Shown: positions 1 through 62,462 of the stretch, piece by piece
Layout of the letters: each line of letters starts with the position of its first letter
Position numbering within the stretch: position 1 is the first letter of the stretch
NCBI GenBank assembly: GCA_904387055.1
Contig: CAJFKV010000006.1
Location: 1 to 64,000 of the forward strand
DNA: 64,000 bases
Direction: 5' to 3'
From: Candidatus Heteroruminococcus faecigallinarum
GTDB lineage: Bacteria; Bacillota; Clostridia; Oscillospirales; Ruminococcaceae
The notes under the pieces: model-generated
The model's input: only the letters and a program-made list of their open reading frames with translations
Databases searched by the model: none
What the model was told of the DNA's origin: nothing
Translations under genes and position numbers: made by a program

Positions 1-1566
1 GTCCAGCGCCTCCTTGGAGGCCAGGCAGCTGTCGTTGTGGGGGTCGGTGTACCGGAGGAAATACCAGGAGGAACCCGCCCACTGGGGCATGGTGTCGGTC
101 TCCCGCTTGGCGGGGCCGCCGCAGTGGGGGCAGGTGGTGTTCACCCAGTCGGTCATGGCCGCCAGGGGGGATTCACCGTTGTCGGTGGGCTCGTAGGAAT
201 CCACCTCCGGCAGGGTGAGGGGAAGCTGGTCCTCCGGCAGAGGTACCCAGCCGCACTTCTCACAGTAGACCAGGGGAATCGGCTCGCCCCAGTACCGCTG
301 GCGGGAGAAAACCCAGTCCCGCAGCTTGTAATTCACCTTGGGACGGCCCTTGCCGGTCTCCTCCAGATAGGCGGTGATCTTCTTCTTGGCCTCTTCCACC
401 GACAGGCCGTCCAGCATGCCGGAATTGACCATCTGGCCGGTGGCGCAGTCCACGAAGGCTTCCTTCTCCACGTCGCCGCCCTTGACCACCTCGATGATGG
501 GCAGGCCAAACTTCTTGGCAAATTCCCAGTCGCGGGTGTCGTGGCCGGGCACCGCCATGATGGCGCCGGTGCCGTAGGTCATGAGGACATAGTCGGAGAC
601 AAAGATGGGGATCTGGGTGTCGTTCACCGGGTTGATGCCCATCACCCCCTGGAGGCGGACGCCGGTCTTGTCCTTGGCCACCTCGGTGCGCTCAAAGTCG
701 CTCTTGCGGGCGGCGGCCTCCTGGTAGGCGCGGATCTCCTCCAGGTTTTCCAGCTTGCCGGCCCACTTCTCGATGTAGGGATGCTCGGGGGAGATGACCA
801 TATAGGTGGCCCCGTACAGGGTGTCGGGCCGGGTGGTGTAGACGGTGAGGGTGTCCCCGGCGGTGGTGCCGAAATCCACCTCGGCGCCGGTGGAGCGGCC
901 GATCCAGTTGCGCTGGGACACCTTGACCCGGTCTATGTAGTTGACCAGATCCAGGTCGTCGATGAGCCGCTGGGCATAGGCGGTGATCTTCAGCATCCAC
1001 TGGCTCTTCACCTTCCGGACCACCTCGCTGCCGCACCGCTCGCACACGCCGTTGACCACCTCTTCGTTGGCCAGGACACACTTGCAGGAGGTGCACCAGT
1101 TGACCGCCATCTCTTTTTTGTAGGCAAGGCCCTTCTTGAACAGCTGCAGGAAGATCCACTGGGTCCACTTGTAGTAGCTGGGATCGGTGGTATTGATCTC
1201 CCGGCTCCAGTCGAAGGAGAGGCCCAGGCTCTTCAGCTGGCTTTTGAAGCGGGCCACGTTCTGCTTGGTAACAATCTCCGGATGGATGTGGTTCTTAATG
1301 GCGTAATTCTCGGTGGGCAGGCCAAAGGCGTCCCAGCCCATGGGATAGAGGACGTTGTAACCCTGCTGGCGGCGCTTGCGGGCCACAATGTCCAGGGCCG
1401 TATAAGACCGGGGGTGGCCCACATGCAGCCCCTGGCCCGAGGGATAGGGGAACTCCACCAGCGCATAATACTTGGGCTTGGAATAATCGTTGGAGGCGGC
1501 GTAGACGTTGCGCGCGTCCCAAATGTCCTGCCACTTCTTCTCAATGGCTTTGAAATCGTACTTCAA
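1..1566 (-). CDS. leuS: Leucyl-tRNA synthetase, N-terminal part (runs off window start)
   Basis: Minus-strand reading from a TTG at 1564-1566 gives (M)[18 protein letters not shown]..., typical LeuRS N-terminus; the long + ORF here is antisense. Confidence 0.9.
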
Positions 1567-37744: not shown

Positions 37745-39637
37745 TTAGATGCCCAGGGCAGCTCTCTTTTCCTCAATCCGGTCAATCATGGCGTCGCACA
37801 GCTTCTCGGGATTCATCTCCACGGTAAAGGCAGCGCCCACCCAGTCGCGGACCTTGTTGTACAGCAGGTCCTTCATCTGGGAAGAGCCCTCAATCTGGGG
37901 AGTAATGCCCAGGAAGGTTTCGATACCGGTGGCCACCACGTAGTTGCCGATGGAGACCGCCTTCTCGCTCATCCACTCGGGAGCGCAGCCCACGATGGGC
38001 AGCTGGGCGGTATCCACGCCCCAGTCCTTGGCCACGCCGGTCACCAGCAGCATCATACGGCTGATGTCCACGCAGGAACCCATGTGCAGGACGGGAGGAA
38101 TGTTGGCCAACTCGCAGACTCTCTTGAGGCCGGCGCCGCACAGCTCCTTAGCCTCCCGGCACATCAGGCCGGCCTTGGCAGCGGCCTGGGCGGAACAGCC
38201 GGACACCACCAGGATGATGTCGTTGGCCAGCAGCTTCTTCATAATCTCAATGTGGGAGTAGTCGTGACGGACCTTGGGGTTGTTGCAGCCTACCATGGCC
38301 ACGGCGCCCCGCAGAACGCCGGACTCCAGACACTCCACCAGAGGCTTGTAGGTGCCGGTCACATCCACGTGGGAGTTGGTCACCGTATCCAGCGTCTTGA
38401 TGATGGCCTCGCAGGAGTAACCCACGGTGCACTTCTGCTTCATCTTGGGGATGTACACCAGATCCTGGTTCCGGTTCTTGAAGTTCTGCACCGCCATGGT
38501 GACAATCTGGCGGGCGTTTTCACCGGCATTCTCGGGGGAGAAGTGGATAAACTCGGAATCGGGCATCCGGGCAATGTTGGAGGTGGTGATAAACTTGGTA
38601 TGGAAGCACTTGCTCAGGGGGCCCAGGGCGGGGAAGATGCATTGCACATCCACCACAACCGCCTCCACAGCGCCGGTGAGGACCGCGTTCTCCTGCTGGA
38701 GGAAGTTGCCGGCCATCCGGATGCCGTGGCGCATGGCCACCTCGTTGGCGGTGCAGCACATGCCGGCCACGTTGATCCCCTTGGCGCCCATCTCCTTGGC
38801 CATGGCGATCATCTCGGGCTTCTCGGACCACTCCACGATCATCTCGGAGAGGGACGGATCATGGCCATGGACGATGATGTTGACCATGTCCTCCTCCAGG
38901 ACGCCCAGGTTGGCCTCGGTATCGATGGGCTTGGGGGTACCAAACAGAACATCGGAGAAGTCGGTACCGGCCATGGAGCCGCCCCAGCCGTCGCTCAGGC
39001 CGCAGCGCAGGGCCTGGCGGACCAGGGCCTCCGGCTCGGAGGAGCAGCCCATGTGGGTCATGTGCAGGGCCTGGGAGACCTCCCGGTCGATGGCCCGGGG
39101 CTCGATGCCCTCCCGGGCCCAGATCGCCTGGCGCTCCTTGTTGGCTCTCTTCAGGAACCGCTGGGTGCCGAAGGGCTTGCCGTACTCCAGCAGCGCGGTC
39201 TCGGCCACCTGGTGGGCAACGTCGTAGATGTCCCGGCCCTCGGTGGGGATATCCCACTCGCCGGCGATCCGCAGCAGCTTCTCCGGATCCTTCACCTTGT
39301 AGTTGCCGTCGGCAGCGGTGCAGTACAGGGTGTGGCAGATCTCGCGGCCGTGGTCGGAGTGGGTGGCGGAGCCGCCGGCGGTGAACCGCAGGAAGTTCCG
39401 GCCGGCAATGCCGTGGGCGTCGCAGCCGCAGATGCCCCGGGGCGCCTTGGGAGTGATGCGGCAGGGACCCATGGAGCAGATCCGGCAGCAGATGCCCTCT
39501 TCACCGAACTTGCAGTGAGGGGTCTGCTGCTTCACACGGGCCTGCCAGGTGCTGGCTCCCACCTTATCGGCGGTTTCAAGCAGCTTTGCTACTTCGTTTT
39601 CCATCTCTTCGAAGGTAGTTAAGGTTACTTTTTCCAT
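37745..39637 (-). CDS. cooS: Carbon monoxide dehydrogenase catalytic subunit
   Basis: 630 aa; FGEEGICCRICSMGPCRITPKAPRGICGCDAHGIAGRNFLRFTAGG and other C/D-cluster motifs. Confidence 0.95.
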   Translation of the reverse strand: MEKVTLTTFEEMENEVAKLLETADKVGASTWQARVKQQTPHCKFGEEGICCRICSMGPCRITPKAPRGICGCDAHGIAGRNFLRFTAGGSATHSDHGREICHTLYCTAADGNYKVKDPEKLLRIAGEWDIPTEGRDIYDVAHQVAETALLEYGKPFGTQRFLKRANKERQAIWAREGIEPRAIDREVSQALHMTHMGCSSEPEALVRQALRCGLSDGWGGSMAGTDFSDVLFGTPKPIDTEANLGVLEEDMVNIIVHGHDPSLSEMIVEWSEKPEMIAMAKEMGAKGINVAGMCCTANEVAMRHGIRMAGNFLQQENAVLTGAVEAVVVDVQCIFPALGPLSKCFHTKFITTSNIARMPDSEFIHFSPENAGENARQIVTMAVQNFKNRNQDLVYIPKMKQKCTVGYSCEAIIKTLDTVTNSHVDVTGTYKPLVECLESGVLRGAVAMVGCNNPKVRHDYSHIEIMKKLLANDIILVVSGCSAQAAAKAGLMCREAKELCGAGLKRVCELANIPPVLHMGSCVDISRMMLLVTGVAKDWGVDTAQLPIVGCAPEWMSEKAVSIGNYVVATGIETFLGITPQIEGSSQMKDLLYNKVRDWVGAAFTVEMNPEKLCDAMIDRIEEKRAALGI

Positions 39638-40008
39638 CGTGTATCTCCTTTATAAAGTCGTTCCTTACCGGGAACCGTCCCTCGGTGAAGAGGGGTCGGT
39701 CAGCTTGTGGAAACCGGCCCGTCCGGAAACCGGCCGGCCGGCTGCAAAGGCACAGCGGTCTTTAGCAGATCCATCCTGGGGAAAAGAGGGTGTCCGTTCT
39801 TCTCCCCAGGCCCTTGGGAAAAGCCCCGTCCAGGGCCGGTCGCGGCGCAGCCCGCGCCCCAGGCATACCGGGAACCGCGCTTTGCCGCAGCGCCGGCGCC
39901 TGCCGATTCTTCTGAATCCAGCCGATCTTCATGATCTTTCTTTCCTCCTACATCAATCTGCATCAATATGTTACCGCCGGCGCCGCAGCGCGCCGGACAG
40001 CGCCTTCC

Positions 40009-40320
40009 CTACTTCAAGAACTTGGCGATGGCGTCGTTCAGGTCGTCCAGCGTCTTCTGATCGCCGGTCTCCATCGCCTCCAACAAGCAGTGCTGAATGT
40101 GGTCCTGCAGCACAACCCGGCCGGTATTGGTGATGGCCGAGCGGACCGCCGCCAGCTGGATGAGCACCTCGCTGCAGTCCCGTCCTTCTTCCACCATCTT
40201 CTTGACCGCCTCCAGGTGGCCGATGGCCCGGGACAAGCGGTGAAGCACCTGCTTGGTCTGGGTATGGCTGTGGGCGTGACAGGGGCAGGCGTCTTCCTCC
40301 CGCCCATGCTCCGGATTCAT
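40009..40320 (-). CDS. CsoR/RcnR/InrS-family metal-sensing repressor
   Basis: HTQTKQVLHRLSRAIGHLEAVKKMVEEGRDCSEVLIQLAAVRSAI...LQDHIQHCL; N-terminal DACPCHAHSHT. Confidence 0.9.
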   Translation of the reverse strand: MNPEHGREEDACPCHAHSHTQTKQVLHRLSRAIGHLEAVKKMVEEGRDCSEVLIQLAAVRSAITNTGRVVLQDHIQHCLLEAMETGDQKTLDDLNDAIAKFLK

Positions 40321-40508
40321 GCCGCGCTCCCTCCTTCTTCCCGCCGCAGGGCAGACTTCTCCCTTTCCCCGCGCAGGCTAGTTAATATAATAACAACTTT
40401 TCCTGCAAAATACAAGGGGAAAACGCATTTTTCCCCGCTTTTTTCGACGCCTTTCCCTGGAAGCGCTGGCAGCACTTTCTTTCCCCTCCGGCGGCCCTCC
40501 CGGCCGTC

Positions 40509-40928
40509 TCAGCAACGCTCCAGCAGATCCGGCCGGTGAACCACCTCGGCCAGCTCCCGCAGATAGTCGGACAGGGGATTGTCCCCCGTTCCCAGCACCC
40601 GCACGCTGCACTGGTTCATGGGGACCAGCAGCTTTTTGGCACGGCTGGCAGCGACCGCCTGGGCCATCGCCGGGCTGATCTCCCCGTGCATGGAATTGGC
40701 AAACCCAATGCCGATCGCTCCCACAATCAGGTCCGCGTCGGCACAATTGTAGACCACGGCGTTTTCCCCCGTGGCTCCCACCGGGGCCCCCGCCTTCAGC
40801 ATGGCGGAGGTGGCCACCGCGTTGGTGCCCACCGCCACCAGATGGGCCTCGGGCAGTTCCCGCCGCAGCAGCTGCACAATGCTGCGGCCCATGCCGCCCC
40901 CCTGCCCGTCAATCACCACAATCTTCAT
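40509..40928 (-). CDS. DUF3842-type protein
   Basis: 139 aa; MKIVVIDGQGGGMGRSIVQLLRRELPEAHLVAVGTNAVATSAMLKAGA. Confidence 0.75.
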   Translation of the reverse strand: MKIVVIDGQGGGMGRSIVQLLRRELPEAHLVAVGTNAVATSAMLKAGAPVGATGENAVVYNCADADLIVGAIGIGFANSMHGEISPAMAQAVAASRAKKLLVPMNQCSVRVLGTGDNPLSDYLRELAEVVHRPDLLERC

Positions 40929-41033
40929 CCCGTCTCTCCTATTCTCTGGCAATCGGTCGGAGAACCAGCTTCCCTGCATGGTTCCCCTCGCGTTCCTTTT
41001 CATCCTTGTCGCCCTCGCCCGCCAGGGGAAAAG

Positions 41034-41324
41034 GCCCTCCCCGCGGCACCCCCGCCATCCCGGGCAGGCGGCTGTGGGCCCTGGCCCGGCTTTCACAGCA
41101 AGCCGAACATCCCGGAAAGGGCAGGCGGCAGCCGTGCCGCGTGGACAGATGCCCTCCCCGCGGCACCTGCGCCATCCTGCGCGGGTGGCTCCGGGCCCTG
41201 GCCCGGCTTTCACAGCAAGCCGAACATCCCGGAAAGGGCAGGTGGCAGCCGTGCCGCGTGGACAGATGCCCTCCCCACGGCACCCCCGCCATCCTGCGCG
41301 GGTGGCTCCGGTCCCTGGCCCGGG
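41034..41324. repeat. 117-bp tandem direct repeat, about 2.5 copies
   Basis: gccctcccc(g/a)cggcacc... units start at 41034, 41151, 41268; period exactly 117. Confidence 0.95.
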
Positions 41325-41481
41325 GCTTTGCGACTATTATACCACAGGTTCATTGCTAGGAAAAGATGTCAACAACCACTTTCCCCTCTTTCTTCTGCCA
41401 ATTGACAAGATGCCTACCTTTGGGGTACACTTTCTCTAGCAAACCCGTCCTTTTGCCAATCCATCCCCAGGAGGAACCGCC

Positions 41482-42225
41482 ATGACCTTGGACGCCTTTT
41501 TCCGGGAACATCCCCGGTTTGCCCTTGCCTTCTCCGGCGGGACCGACTCGGCCTACCTGTTGTGGGCGGCGGTCCAGGCCGGGTGCCAGGTGCAGCCTTA
41601 TTTTGTCAAGACCCCCTTCCAGCCCGCCTTTGAGCTGGCGGACGCCCGGCGGCTGGCCGGCCAGGTGGGCCTCCCCCTGACCGTGCTGCCGGTGGCGGTG
41701 CTGGACCTGCCCCAGGTCGTCCAAAACCCGCCGGACCGGTGTTACCACTGCAAGACCGCCCTCTTCACCGCCCTCTTCCGCCAGGCGGAGCAGGACGGAT
41801 ATTCTCTCCTCTGTGACGGGACCAACGCCTCCGACCGGGCGGACGACCGCCCCGGCATGCGGGCCCTCGCCCAGCTGGGGGTCCGTTCCCCTCTCCGGGA
41901 GTGTGGCATTACCAAGGAGCAGGTGCGGGCCCTTTCCCGGCAGGCGGGCCTGTTTACCGCCGACAAGCCCTCCTACGCCTGCCTGGCCACCCGGATTCCC
42001 GCCGGGACGGCCATCACCCGGGAGGCCCTGGAAGCGGTGGAGACCGGCGAGAGCCGGCTGGCCGCCATGGGCTTTTCCGACCTGCGGCTGCGGCTGGACG
42101 GCCCCAACGCCCGTCTCCAGCTGCCGCAAAGCCAGATGGCGGACGCGTTTGCCCGCCGGGACGAGATTCTGGACAACCTCAAGGACCTGTTCCCCGCCGT
42201 TTCCCTGGATCTTGGGGGCCGGTAG
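41482..42225 (+). CDS. larE: ATP-dependent sacrificial sulfur transferase LarE
   Basis: PP-loop AFSGGTDSAYLLWAA, PPDRCYHCKTALF, DGTNASDRADDRPGMRAL, KPSYACLATRIP. Confidence 0.92.
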   Translation: MTLDAFFREHPRFALAFSGGTDSAYLLWAAVQAGCQVQPYFVKTPFQPAFELADARRLAGQVGLPLTVLPVAVLDLPQVVQNPPDRCYHCKTALFTALFRQAEQDGYSLLCDGTNASDRADDRPGMRALAQLGVRSPLRECGITKEQVRALSRQAGLFTADKPSYACLATRIPAGTAITREALEAVETGESRLAAMGFSDLRLRLDGPNARLQLPQSQMADAFARRDEILDNLKDLFPAVSLDLGGR

Positions 42226-42265
42226 CGGGAAGATCCCCCCCGCCCGGGGGAAGAAAGGAGGCAGC

Positions 42266-43084
42266 ATGGAACCCAACCAATACCTGATCGACTTCTACAG
42301 CCATTACGACGAGGAGGGCCGGCTGGCCTCCCGCCACGGATCGGTGGAATTTCTCACCACCATGGGGTACCTTTCCCGTTATCTCCGCCCCGGCTGCCGG
42401 GTACTGGAGATCGGCGCGGGGACCGGCCGCTATTCCCACGCCCTGGCCCGCCAGGGCTACCAGGTGGACGCGGTGGAGCTGGTGGAACACAACCTCAACC
42501 TTTTCCGCCAGGGGACAACCCCCGGCGAACAGATAACCGTCGTCCAGGGAAACGCGCTGGACCTCTCCGCCTTTCCCGACAATACCTACGACATCACCCT
42601 GCTGCTGGGGCCCCTGTATCATCTATATACAGAGGAGGACAAGCGCCAGGCCCTGGGGGAAGCAATCCGGGTCACCCGGCCGGGGGGCGTCCTCTTCGCC
42701 GCCTATGTTATCTCCGACGGCTGCCTGCTGGACGAGGGATTCCTGCGGGGGACGGTGGATGTGGAGGCCTACCTGCGGGACGGGCTTCTGGACCCCCAGA
42801 CCTTTGCCGCTGCCTCCCAGCCCAAGGATCTCTTTGAGCTGGTCCGGAAGGAGGACATCGACCGACTCATGGAACCGTTCCCGGTCACCCGCCTGCACTA
42901 TGTGGCGTCGGACGGGTGCGCCCTGCTGCTGCGGGAGGCCCTGGACCGGATGGACGACTCCCGTTTTCAGCTGTTCCTGCGGTACCATTTTGCCACCTGC
43001 GAGCGGGAGGACCTGGCCGGGGTCACCAGCCATTCCCTGGACATCTTTCGGAAGGACCCACCTTCCCCTTCCGTCTCTATCTAG
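42266..43084 (+). CDS. Class I SAM-dependent methyltransferase
   Basis: CRVLEIGAGTGRYSHALARQGYQVDAVEL...YDITLLLGPLYHLYTEEDKRQALGEAIRVTRPGGVLFAAYV. Confidence 0.88.
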   Translation: MEPNQYLIDFYSHYDEEGRLASRHGSVEFLTTMGYLSRYLRPGCRVLEIGAGTGRYSHALARQGYQVDAVELVEHNLNLFRQGTTPGEQITVVQGNALDLSAFPDNTYDITLLLGPLYHLYTEEDKRQALGEAIRVTRPGGVLFAAYVISDGCLLDEGFLRGTVDVEAYLRDGLLDPQTFAAASQPKDLFELVRKEDIDRLMEPFPVTRLHYVASDGCALLLREALDRMDDSRFQLFLRYHFATCEREDLAGVTSHSLDIFRKDPPSPSVSI

Positions 43085-43146
43085 CCATCGGCGGGCCGCC
43101 AAGCAACCCGGCCCGCCGCCTCGACAAAAGGAGGTTACAATCGTTT

Positions 43147-43908
43147 ATGGATCAGGAGAAACTCCTTTCGCTGCTCCGCCAGGTGCAGGAAGGCCGCCTC
43201 GCCCCGGAGGACGCCCTCCTGGAGCTGAAGATGGAGCCCTTTGAAGATCTGGGCTACGCCAAGATCGACCACCACCGCCAGCTGCGCCAGGGGGTGCCGG
43301 AGGTCATCTTCGGCAGCGGCAAGACCGCCGGCCAGATCGCCGGCATCTCCCGCGCCCTGCTGGACAAAGGCGTGCACAACATCCTCATCACCCGCCTGGA
43401 CCAGGACAAGGCCCAGGCGGTGGAGAAGGAGGTGGCCCTGCGGTACGACCCGGTGGCCCGCATCGGGGTCGTGGGAGAGGAGCCGGCGGTCACCGCGCCC
43501 GGCTATGTCCTGGTGGCCACCGGCGGCACCAGCGACATCCCGGTGGCGGAGGAGGCCGCCCTCACCGCCCAGACCCTGGGCAACCGGGTGGAGCGGCTGT
43601 ACGACGTGGGGGTGGCGGGGATGCACCGCCTTCTCTCCCACCTGGACAAGATCATGGGGGCCCGGGTCATCATCGCCGTCGCCGGGATGGAGGGCGCTTT
43701 GGCCAGCGTCATCGGCGGCTTGGCCGACTGTCCCGTCCTGGCCGTCCCCACCAGCATCGGCTATGGGGCCAACTTCGGCGGCCTGTCGGCCCTGCTGTCC
43801 ATGCTCAATTCCTGCGCCAGCGGGGTGAGCGTGGTAAACATCGACAACGGCTTCGGCGCCGGCTATATGGCCAGCATCATCAATCATCTGGGGGTGACCC
43901 ATCCATGA
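43147..43908 (+). CDS. larB: Nickel pincer cofactor biosynthesis protein LarB
   Basis: FEDLGYAKIDHHRQLRQGVPEVIFGSGKTAGQIAGI...VPTSIGYGANFGGLSALLSMLNSCASGVSVVNIDNGFGAGYMA. Confidence 0.94.
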   Translation: MDQEKLLSLLRQVQEGRLAPEDALLELKMEPFEDLGYAKIDHHRQLRQGVPEVIFGSGKTAGQIAGISRALLDKGVHNILITRLDQDKAQAVEKEVALRYDPVARIGVVGEEPAVTAPGYVLVATGGTSDIPVAEEAALTAQTLGNRVERLYDVGVAGMHRLLSHLDKIMGARVIIAVAGMEGALASVIGGLADCPVLAVPTSIGYGANFGGLSALLSMLNSCASGVSVVNIDNGFGAGYMASIINHLGVTHP

Positions 43909-45077
43909 AAACGCTCTACCTGGAATGCGCCATGGGGGCGTCCAGCGACATGCTGGCCGCCGCCCTCTTCGACCTGTGCCCCGACCGGGACCTGGCCTAC
44001 CTGCAGCTGACCCATCTGGGCTATCCCGGCCTGCATCTGGAGCTCGCCCCCGCCGAGAAGATGGGCATTGCCGGCGCCTCCTTCTCCCTGTGGCTGGACC
44101 AGCCGCCCCAGGGCCATTTCCACGCGGACCTGGCCTGGGTGGAGGAGCTGCTCCTCTCCCTGGACATGCCCCGGGCCGCCCGGGAAAAAGCCATGGCCGT
44201 CTACGGGCGGATTGCCCAGGCGGAGGGGGCCGTCCACGGGGCGGGCCCCCGGGAGGTCCATTTCCACGAGGTGGGGTCGCCCCGGGCGGTGCTGTCGGTG
44301 GCGGCCTGCTGCCTCCTGTGGAACCTGCTGTCCCCCGACCGGGTGGTGGTCTCCCCCATCCACCTGGGAAGCGGGGTGGTCCAGTGTGCCCACGGCCTCC
44401 TGCCGGTGCCCGCCCCCGCCACCGCCCGGCTGCTGGAGGGGGTCCCCGTCTACGGCGGACAGATCGAGGGGGAGCTGTGCACCCCCACCGGCGCCGCCCT
44501 CCTGCGGGAGATGGCCGGCTCCTTCGGGCCCATGCCGGTGATGGCGGTGGAGAAGACCGGCTGCGGCATTGGGAAGAAGGACTTTCCCCGGCCCAACTGC
44601 CTGCGGGCCTTCCTGGGGCGGGAGGAGGAAGCCTTCCAGTCCAACGGCGCCGCCCTGGAGCTGGTCTGCAACCTGGACGACATCACCTCCGAGGCCCTCT
44701 CCTTCGCCTGCCAGAAGCTGCTGGAGGCGGGGGCGGTGGACGTGGCGGTGACCCCCATCCTGATGAAGAAGGGCCGTCCCGCCTTCCAGCTCACCTGCAT
44801 GGGCCGGGAAGCTACCCGGGAGGCCCTGGTGAAGGCCCTCTTCCAGTACACCACCACCCTGGGCATCCGGGAGCGGCGCTGCCCCCGGTACACCCTGGAC
44901 TCCCGCTTTGAGGAGGTGTCCACCCCCTACGGCCCGGTCACCTTGAAGATCAGCGAGGGGTACGGGGTGAAGCGGTGCAAGCCGGAGTACGACACGGTGG
45001 AGGCCGCCGCCCGGAAGGCGGGCGTCCCCTTCCAGACGGTGTGGGAAGCGGCCCAGGCGGCGGACCGGGACCGGTAA
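43905..45077 (+). CDS. larC: Nickel pincer cofactor biosynthesis protein LarC (single continuous ORF)
   Basis: 390 aa; MKTLYLECAMGASSDMLAAALFDL...HFHEVGSPRAVLSVAA...ANLDDITSEAL-like region and C-terminal domain in one frame. Confidence 0.93.
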   Translation: MKTLYLECAMGASSDMLAAALFDLCPDRDLAYLQLTHLGYPGLHLELAPAEKMGIAGASFSLWLDQPPQGHFHADLAWVEELLLSLDMPRAAREKAMAVYGRIAQAEGAVHGAGPREVHFHEVGSPRAVLSVAACCLLWNLLSPDRVVVSPIHLGSGVVQCAHGLLPVPAPATARLLEGVPVYGGQIEGELCTPTGAALLREMAGSFGPMPVMAVEKTGCGIGKKDFPRPNCLRAFLGREEEAFQSNGAALELVCNLDDITSEALSFACQKLLEAGAVDVAVTPILMKKGRPAFQLTCMGREATREALVKALFQYTTTLGIRERRCPRYTLDSRFEEVSTPYGPVTLKISEGYGVKRCKPEYDTVEAAARKAGVPFQTVWEAAQAADRDR

Positions 45078-52574: not shown

Positions 52575-53600
52575 TCAGGTTTTTGTCAGGTGAATGCGGC
52601 AGCAGGAACAGCCTTCTGCCAGGGTTTGGGGGATCTCCACCTGGATGGACGGGTCGTAGGTTTCACAGATACCCCGGTACACCTCCTCGCAGAAGATCCT
52701 CCCCAGGTCTTCCGCCTGGTGGTCCCGCCACACCTGGGCCAGAACACACCGGCGGACGGTCAGTTTTCCTTCGCCGGGGGTAAGGACCTCGTCCTCCTTC
52801 TGGAATCGGAAGTCCAGGAAGATGTCCCCGTCCCGGATCAGCCGGTCGACGCCGCTTGCCTTCCCTTCCCGGCGGTCCAGCTCCCGCAGCCGCTCGCCCC
52901 GGCAGTTGGCCCAGGCCCGCAGCCCCTTGCGGAGGGTTTCCTCCCCCAGCTCCTCCCGGATCAAGGACGCCATGTGGTAATACAGCAGGCCGAACATGGT
53001 GTTGATGGAGGCGGCGCAGTCCCGGCCATAGTCCTCCCAGTCCTTCTCCTCATAAGGGGAGAGAGGGTAGGGCTTTTGGTTGGCCTTGCGGCAATGGATG
53101 TAAAAATGGCAGTGGTCGCCCCCGTTGGTCAGCGTCTCGCACAGGTTCACCTGCACCGCCGGGTCAAACCGGCCGTACAAACAGTGGTGGACCTCTTCGC
53201 AGTAGATGGACCCATACCGAAGGGGCTCGCCCAGGTTCTTGTCCTCCAGGGAAGCCCAGATCTCCGCGTTGGGGCAGCGGGTGGTGTGGGAATGTTTCAC
53301 CTCGGGGGTGAGGACCTTGACCCCGTCGTCGTGCTCGAAGCGGGGGTCACCGATCAGGTCCCCGTGGCTGAACAGGGTCACCAGGTCGATGGGCCAGCCG
53401 TTGGCGTCGGCAATCCGGCGCATCCGCTGCCCCCGCTCGGTGCCGTAGTTGCGCACCGCCTGGCGGATCACCCGTTCTCCTTTTTCCCCGTGGTCGTCGA
53501 TGCAGGTCTTGGCGAAGAAGTAAAACAACCCCACCCAGTAAAACTGCTGCCGCTCGGGCGCTGTGGTTTCAATATACCGGTTCTCCCAAGAAATTCCCAT
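52575..53600 (-). CDS. L-2-amino-thiazoline-4-carboxylic acid hydrolase-like protein (two internal repeats)
   Basis: IYCEEVHHCLYGRFDPAVQVNLCETLTNGGDHCHFYI and IFCEEVYRGICETYDPSIQVEIPQTLAEGCSCCRIHL. Confidence 0.7.
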   Translation of the reverse strand: MGISWENRYIETTAPERQQFYWVGLFYFFAKTCIDDHGEKGERVIRQAVRNYGTERGQRMRRIADANGWPIDLVTLFSHGDLIGDPRFEHDDGVKVLTPEVKHSHTTRCPNAEIWASLEDKNLGEPLRYGSIYCEEVHHCLYGRFDPAVQVNLCETLTNGGDHCHFYIHCRKANQKPYPLSPYEEKDWEDYGRDCAASINTMFGLLYYHMASLIREELGEETLRKGLRAWANCRGERLRELDRREGKASGVDRLIRDGDIFLDFRFQKEDEVLTPGEGKLTVRRCVLAQVWRDHQAEDLGRIFCEEVYRGICETYDPSIQVEIPQTLAEGCSCCRIHLTKT

Positions 53601-53619: not shown

Positions 53620-54642
53620 TTAGGCCAATGTCATCCGCAGGGTGTGACGGCTGGAACCGTCCTCCTGGATGACCGTCACCTGAATATCCGGGTTGTAGCT
53701 TTCGCAGATGGCCTTGTACACCTCGTCCCGATAGATCCGGCCCAGATGGGGAGCGCCGTGGTCCTCCATCATCTCCCCCACAATCGACCGGTCCACCCGG
53801 ATGTCCGCCTGGGTGGGGGTCAGGGTATGGATGGTCTTTTGGATCCGCTGGTCCAGGAAGAGGTCACTCTGCTCCACCAGGGGGATCAGGTCGTTGGCAG
53901 CGCCGCGGCGGCGGTTCTGCTCCCGCAGGCGGCAGCCCCGCTCGTTGGCCCAGGCCCGGAGGATCTTCCGCAGGGCCTCCTCCCCAAAGGCGTCGTACAC
54001 CGCCTTGGCATAGTGGTACAGATGGAGGGCAAACATGCTGTGGATGGAGGAAACCTCGTTGTCCCCAAAGTCCTCCCACCGCTGGGGATGGTACTCCCCT
54101 GCCGAATAAGGCTTCTGGTTGGCCTTGCGCAGGTGAATGCGGAAGTTGCAGCATTCGTCCCCCTTGGTGAGGATCTCGCAGAGGTTCATCTGGATGGCCG
54201 GGTCAAACTTTCCGTACAGGTAGTGGTGGACCTCCTCACAGTAGATGGACCCGATCTCCAGATACTCGCCGCTCTTCTTGCCCTCCAGCACCGCCCACAT
54301 ATCGTTGTTGGGGCAGGTATACACCTTCATGAAGCTGTGGTCCGGCTCCGAGATGTTGAACCGCTCGTGGCCGCAGGGTTTGGAGAAGCGGGGATCGCTG
54401 TAGATGTCCTTGATGCTGCTCATGGTGATCAGGTCGGGGGGCATGCCGGCAGCGTCGGCCCGCTGGCGCTTGCGCAGGGCCCGCTCCAGGCCGAAGTCCC
54501 GCACTGCCTGGCGCATCACCCGCTCCCCCTCCAGGCCGTACTCGTCCCGACAGCCCTTCATCATAAAATAGAAGATGCTCACCCACAGATATTGCTCCCG
54601 TTCCCGGGGATCTTCCTCCAGATACTGGTTCTCCCAATTCAT
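53620..54642 (-). CDS. L-2-amino-thiazoline-4-carboxylic acid hydrolase-like protein, paralog of previous
   Basis: IYCEEVHHYLYGKFDPAIQMNLCEILTKGDECCNFRIHLRKANQKPY and IYRDEVYKAICESYNPDIQVTVIQED. Confidence 0.7.
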   Translation of the reverse strand: MNWENQYLEEDPREREQYLWVSIFYFMMKGCRDEYGLEGERVMRQAVRDFGLERALRKRQRADAAGMPPDLITMSSIKDIYSDPRFSKPCGHERFNISEPDHSFMKVYTCPNNDMWAVLEGKKSGEYLEIGSIYCEEVHHYLYGKFDPAIQMNLCEILTKGDECCNFRIHLRKANQKPYSAGEYHPQRWEDFGDNEVSSIHSMFALHLYHYAKAVYDAFGEEALRKILRAWANERGCRLREQNRRRGAANDLIPLVEQSDLFLDQRIQKTIHTLTPTQADIRVDRSIVGEMMEDHGAPHLGRIYRDEVYKAICESYNPDIQVTVIQEDGSSRHTLRMTLA

Positions 54643-62194: not shown

Positions 62195-62379
62195 CGCGGT
62201 TCACATTCCTTTCTTCGCAGCGGCTTCTCACTTCGGCAGCGGAAAAACTTCTTTTCCCGTCCGCCGGTTTCATCTTTTCTATCACTGTATGCATGGACGG
62301 GCCCGTTGATGCCCCTTCCAAAATCCCAACGAGTTTTTTGCCATTTTATACAAAACCTTGTCTACACATTTACGCTTTT

Positions 62380-62462
62380 TGTATTATTAAGTAAAATATA
62401 GCGTTATTTCTTGTATTATTAAGTAAAATATGGCGTTATTTCTTGTATTATCAAGTAATTTT
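62380..62462. repeat. 32-bp tandem direct repeat, about 2.6 copies, AT-rich
   Basis: tgtattattaagtaaaatat(a/g)gcgttatttct at 62380 and 62412, partial copy tgtattatcaagtaattttt at 62444. Confidence 0.95.

Follow-up and report, generated by a model that had tools for sequence, protein, structure and literature searches.

The tandem array of 117-bp units between a DUF3842 gene (minus strand) and larE (plus strand) raises the question of whether it is a regulatory leader, a coding repeat or repetitive DNA of another kind. The array was analysed within the window, the whole stretch of 64,000 nucleotides, and compared with the remaining contigs of the genome and with relatives. The array is most probably a locally amplified, non-coding, intergenic dispersed palindromic repeat (REP/BOX/MITE-like); its features appear to be those of ordinary dispersed repeats rather than of a switch for one gene or of a new peptide.

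The array and its position in front of the DUF3842 gene

The locus contains the following features.

37745-39637, minus: anaerobic CO dehydrogenase catalytic subunit (profile match)
40009-40320, minus: CsoR/RcnR-type metal-sensitive repressor (profile matches)
40509-40928, minus: DUF3842 gene, 139 aa, with an AGGAGA Shine-Dalgarno-like sequence upstream (Pfam E = 1.8e-50)
41034-41324, minus: dispersed element in tandem, 2.5 copies with a 117-bp period (TRF)
41336-41344, minus: extended -10 TGGTATAAT, probable DUF3842 promoter, weak -35
41402-41431, plus: sigma-70-like promoter of the divergent larE, TTGACA-18-TACACT
41482-42225, plus: larE, divergent neighbour (TIGR00268, E = 5.7e-70)

The promoters of the DUF3842 and larE sides stand back to back. 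The extended -10 that the preliminary description had placed near 41335-41345 on the minus strand was found at 41336-41344, and the motif TGNTATAAT of this type occurs four times in the 64 kb against 0.12 occurrences expected from shuffles. Between 39600 and 41600, the minus strand yielded no further promoter-like site. Since the array lies directly behind this strong extended -10, the sole minus-strand candidate, a DUF3842 leader of ~400 nt can reasonably be inferred, and it is plausible from the sequence that the array makes up most of it, in agreement with the earlier placement of the repeats in the probable 5' leader of this gene. On the plus strand, larE appears to be followed by a methyltransferase-like gene and then by a probable larB, and larC (Ni_insertion match) lies downstream in the same lar group. 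The CO dehydrogenase, the repressor and the DUF3842 gene thus stand back to back with the lar group (larE, larC) within 37745-45077. This adjacency suggests a shared nickel theme that includes DUF3842, a family on which no paper was found in the literature.

Analysis with TRF showed an array at 41034-41323 with a period of 117, 2.5 copies, 92% matches, 0 indels and a score of 503, by far the top score in the window, bearing out the ~2.5 copies of ~90% identity first described. On the minus strand, copies A and B are identical at 111/117 positions and copies B and C at 49/57. Comparison of the window with itself showed a 173-bp overlap of the array with E = 6e-66, which excludes chance. The longest exact self-match at a shift of 117 is 50 nt; together with the unique flanks within one contig, this makes a false duplication of the array unlikely, and it is possible that additional identical copies were collapsed in the assembly. 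The GC content of the array is 75% vs. 65% for the window. Two other repeats were observed in the window. An apparently intergenic, AT-rich direct repeat at 62379-62458 (period 32, 2.5 copies, TTGTATTATTAAGTAAAATATAGCGTTATTTC) could be an operator or an array of binding sites, and two 147-bp stretches with 78% identity, located ~1 kb apart at 53068-53213 and 54107-54252, are probably paralogous genes or domains.

The copies of the array and their palindromes and hairpins, all on the minus strand, are located as follows.

41208-41324, minus: copy A, the first behind the promoter (copy comparison)
41308-41323, minus: terminal palindrome of copy A, CCGGGCCAGGGACCGG
41251-41283, minus: copy A counterpart of the third hairpin (predicted fold only)
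41091-41207, minus: copy B
41191-41206, minus: terminal palindrome of copy B, CCGGGCCAGGGCCCGG, with a compensatory C-G for G-C relative to the other copies
41171-41189, minus: second hairpin of copy B, GCCACCCGCGCAGGATGGC, of the same type as in the C96 and C42 copies
41134-41166, minus: third hairpin of copy B, GTGCCGCG...CGCGGCAC (predicted fold only)
41034-41090, minus: copy C, partial (57 bp) and the most diverged
41074-41089, minus: terminal palindrome of copy C, partly broken

The stem GCCATCC-TGCGC-GGGTGGC reported earlier is present and corresponds to the second hairpin of copy B.

Dispersed homologues and the terminal palindrome

Searching the genome with the unit showed that the full array is unique and that partial homologues are present on other contigs. 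The best match is C96:2560-2595, 97% identical over 36 bp to a stretch of copy B (E = 1.9e-10), and further matches on C42 and C96 have E-values of 4e-6 to 2e-3. Thirteen copies, taken from the window, C42 and C96, can be aligned colinearly along ~80 bp of the unit. A 20-base signature, with at most one mismatch, has 13 matches, located only on contigs C6, C42, C71 and C96, i.e. the window contig and three others in the 108-contig assembly. Judged by these alignments, ~80 bp of the 117-bp unit shares homology with a GC-rich element that is dispersed between genes of the same genome, with about a dozen further copies on the three other contigs, and this membership of the unit in a repeat family is a new fact beyond the first reading of the locus. 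Outside the common ~80 bp, the window unit and the other copies have diverged, and nothing in the latter corresponds to the last ~25 bp of the window unit, so that the descent of the unit from the element rests on GC-rich alignments of moderate length.

The homologous copies have varied surroundings. On C42, the copies repeat with a 339-bp tandem period at 92% identity, and the element occupies the gap between gyrA and a deacetylase-like gene, the 3' ends of which face each other. On C71, a gene starts immediately downstream of the element. One of the C96 sites follows a terminator-like sequence, and a second C96 array (1-780, minus strand) lies behind a TGGTATAAT promoter. In the arrays on the other contigs, other modules alternate with the element to form mosaics. 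Long intergenic mosaics with several GC-rich hairpin modules were observed at 3270-4260 of C42 (L010) and at 1-800 and 2450-3000 of C96 (L011). The end of C71 and the start of C96 are both inside the repeat and have a 50-bp end in common, indicating that the assembly breaks there and that the about 14-16 copies found in the genome are a lower bound.

Every copy opens with the palindrome GCGGGC-NAGG-GCCCGC, followed by NGCC. Analysis of 15 head copies showed that 95.6% of the cells of the palindrome are paired and that three of the six pairs have changed on both sides. The eight double changes exceed the 2.8 +/- 1.4 of the shuffled alignments (0/500 as high), a test in which related sequences can exceed shuffles, and controls with the palindrome slid along the alignment agree in direction, with 0-3 double changes. 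The pairing of the terminal palindrome is conserved through compensatory changes. RNAalifold recovered only 10 pairs from the alignment of the whole element; thus, conserved structure is claimed for the terminal palindrome alone, and the two inner hairpins of the body are predicted.

Coding capacity and leader function

The preliminary description pointed to a Cys-rich 39-aa repeat in the minus-strand frame 40939-41292. This open frame exists, the period is divisible by three and several frames are open, so the array might encode such a peptide. It might instead form an in-frame N-terminal extension of DUF3842, the frame of which is open through the array and gives a 274-aa open frame. However, at a GC content of 75%, long open frames are to be expected, and the copies differ at 0 synonymous vs. 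10 non-synonymous codons in the Cys-rich frame and at 3 vs. 9 in the DUF3842 frame. Translation of the frame into a peptide is unsupported. The dispersed homologues have indels that break the Cys-rich frame, the 117-residue translation of the array has no match in Pfam or NCBIfam, and the DUF3842 domain starts at the ATG behind the AGGAGA motif. A coding role in either form is thus very improbable. A coding test of all six frames yielded best synonymous ratios of 7:5 (plus frame 0) and 6:5 (minus frame 1), which are unremarkable; minus frame 1 of the array contains stops.

A dedicated cis-regulatory leader RNA of DUF3842, with the repeated hairpins acting as an attenuator or a sensor, would agree with the extended -10 just upstream, with the three predicted hairpins per unit and with the second C96 array, which lies at a similar distance behind its promoter. 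However, among the DUF3842 loci located in 22 other genomes of relatives, 0/22 have a sequence resembling the window leader and 0/22 have a 117-bp array. The predicted folds are no better than those of dinucleotide shuffles (z -0.71 for one unit and -1.2 for the whole leader) and are as the composition predicts, Rfam, including its leaders and riboswitches, gave nothing above the gathering score for this locus or for the further repeat sites, and a terminator-like site was not found inside the array. The homologous elements also lie at unrelated genes, e.g. between the convergent gyrA and deacetylase-like genes. A dedicated leader RNA is therefore unlikely, and slightly less likely still is a chance local tandem duplication of the leader whose resemblance to the intergenic repeats reflects GC-rich palindromic composition only. 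The uniqueness of the full array and the shortness of the alignments in places would suit such a duplication, but the near-identical 36-bp match to C96, the colinear alignment of the 13 copies and the signature, the matches of which are exactly the dispersed sites, argue against it.

Relation to known repeats and distribution among relatives

The element is comparable to BOX, REP and ERIC elements and has the full set of defining properties of none of them singly (PMC3049150, PMC2817692, PMC2229807). In general terms, it has homologous copies at unlinked intergenic sites (C6, C42, C71 and C96) and a conserved palindrome that can form a hairpin. The BOX elements of Streptococcus pneumoniae are composite intergenic repeats with tandem modules and predicted stem-loops, and are sometimes transcribed in the 5' or 3' extensions of operons (PMC3049150). 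The likeness to BOX is one of general architecture only; unlike BOX, the element here is GC-rich, has far fewer known copies and repeats in tandem as a whole unit and not by an inner module only. Like REP, BIME and REPIN sequences, it has an extragenic palindrome of 16-20 bp, occurs in multiple copies and forms mosaics (PMC2817692, PMC3733652, PMC3116915), and one inverted palindrome pair in the relative G325 resembles a REPIN. However, REP sequences usually exceed 100 copies per genome whereas fewer than 20 were found here (a lower bound), no GTAG-type tag was noticed and no link to a Y1 (RAYT) transposase was found. ERIC elements and bacterial MITEs are likewise ~100 bp long, intergenic and hairpin-forming, and can be co-transcribed with their neighbours (PMC2229807). 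Terminal inverted repeats were not seen in the own-genome copies, the arrays of which run head-to-tail, and one inverted pair is present in G325. IS200-type Y1 transposases are present in G000 and G166 and none was found in G289; as candidate sources of the element they were rejected, their flanks having no resemblance to it.

The exact pattern of the palindrome plus NGCC is present in 3/398 genomes of the family, from two genera: six copies in the own genome and eight and six copies, respectively, in G289 and G325 of one other genus. The backwards control of the pattern gave single matches only, and 0 copies are present in G001, a second, nearly complete genome from the own genus. The bodies behind the palindrome differ between the genomes. 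In G289, the palindrome GCGGGCCAGGGCCCGC ends a ~250-bp repeat of mostly 87-94% identity, located in at least seven places (L110-L117, L060), most of them at the ends of contigs, with unrelated genes as neighbours. In G325, the palindrome seems to lie directly against gene ends, and the single inverted pair surrounds a ~160-bp body, spanning ~200 bp. Such a patchy distribution, with several copies per genome, is consistent with repeats that move or have recently been amplified. A second module of the C42 arrays, GTTGGG...CCCAAC, has ~29 relatives in G166 (L046, L050, L052 and others), copies of the hairpin module CGAGTGGATTGTCGGGCTTTACCCCGACAACCGGCGAGC with a compensatory change to GTCGGG...CCCGAC.

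The search of the relatives with the unit scored at most two candidates per genome, so that diverged copies were perhaps missed. The weak matches of the unit to further genomes of the family (E 5e-5 to 7e-4) are short, single and chance-like. The exception is L060 in G289, through which the ~250-bp repeat family was identified; another weak match, L002 (G014), seems to be located at the end of a coding sequence. Scanning 84,980 species gave 0 matches for a 27-base signature and, for a 20-base signature, 22 single matches in unrelated phyla that were taken as chance.

Under the preferred reading of a dispersed palindromic repeat, each copy would consist of the terminal palindrome and a ~60-100-bp body with two further predicted hairpins. 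The copies would have spread through a process acting on the palindrome, and unequal recombination or replication slippage would have given the 2.5 copies at the DUF3842 site. Located just downstream of the DUF3842 promoter, the array would be transcribed within a GC-rich structured 5' leader and could have modest effects on elongation, on the stability of the mRNA or on ribosome access; it would not be a dedicated regulator and would not be coding. A broader proposal, put forward tentatively and judged possible rather than probable, is that the palindrome GCGGGYNAGGRCCCGCNGCC defines an undescribed mobile element of this bacterial family, which has differing bodies across genera and a patchy distribution, lands around gene starts and ends, joins leaders and can change the expression of host genes. 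No description of such repeats in this bacterial group was found in the literature.

The analysis recasts a puzzling leader with a possible peptide as a member of a small dispersed palindromic repeat family. Should the element prove mobile, this would account in part for the breaks between contigs in these genomes and for leaders that vary from strain to strain. Its presence in so few genomes of the family offers a simple handle on its mobility and its effects on neighbouring genes.
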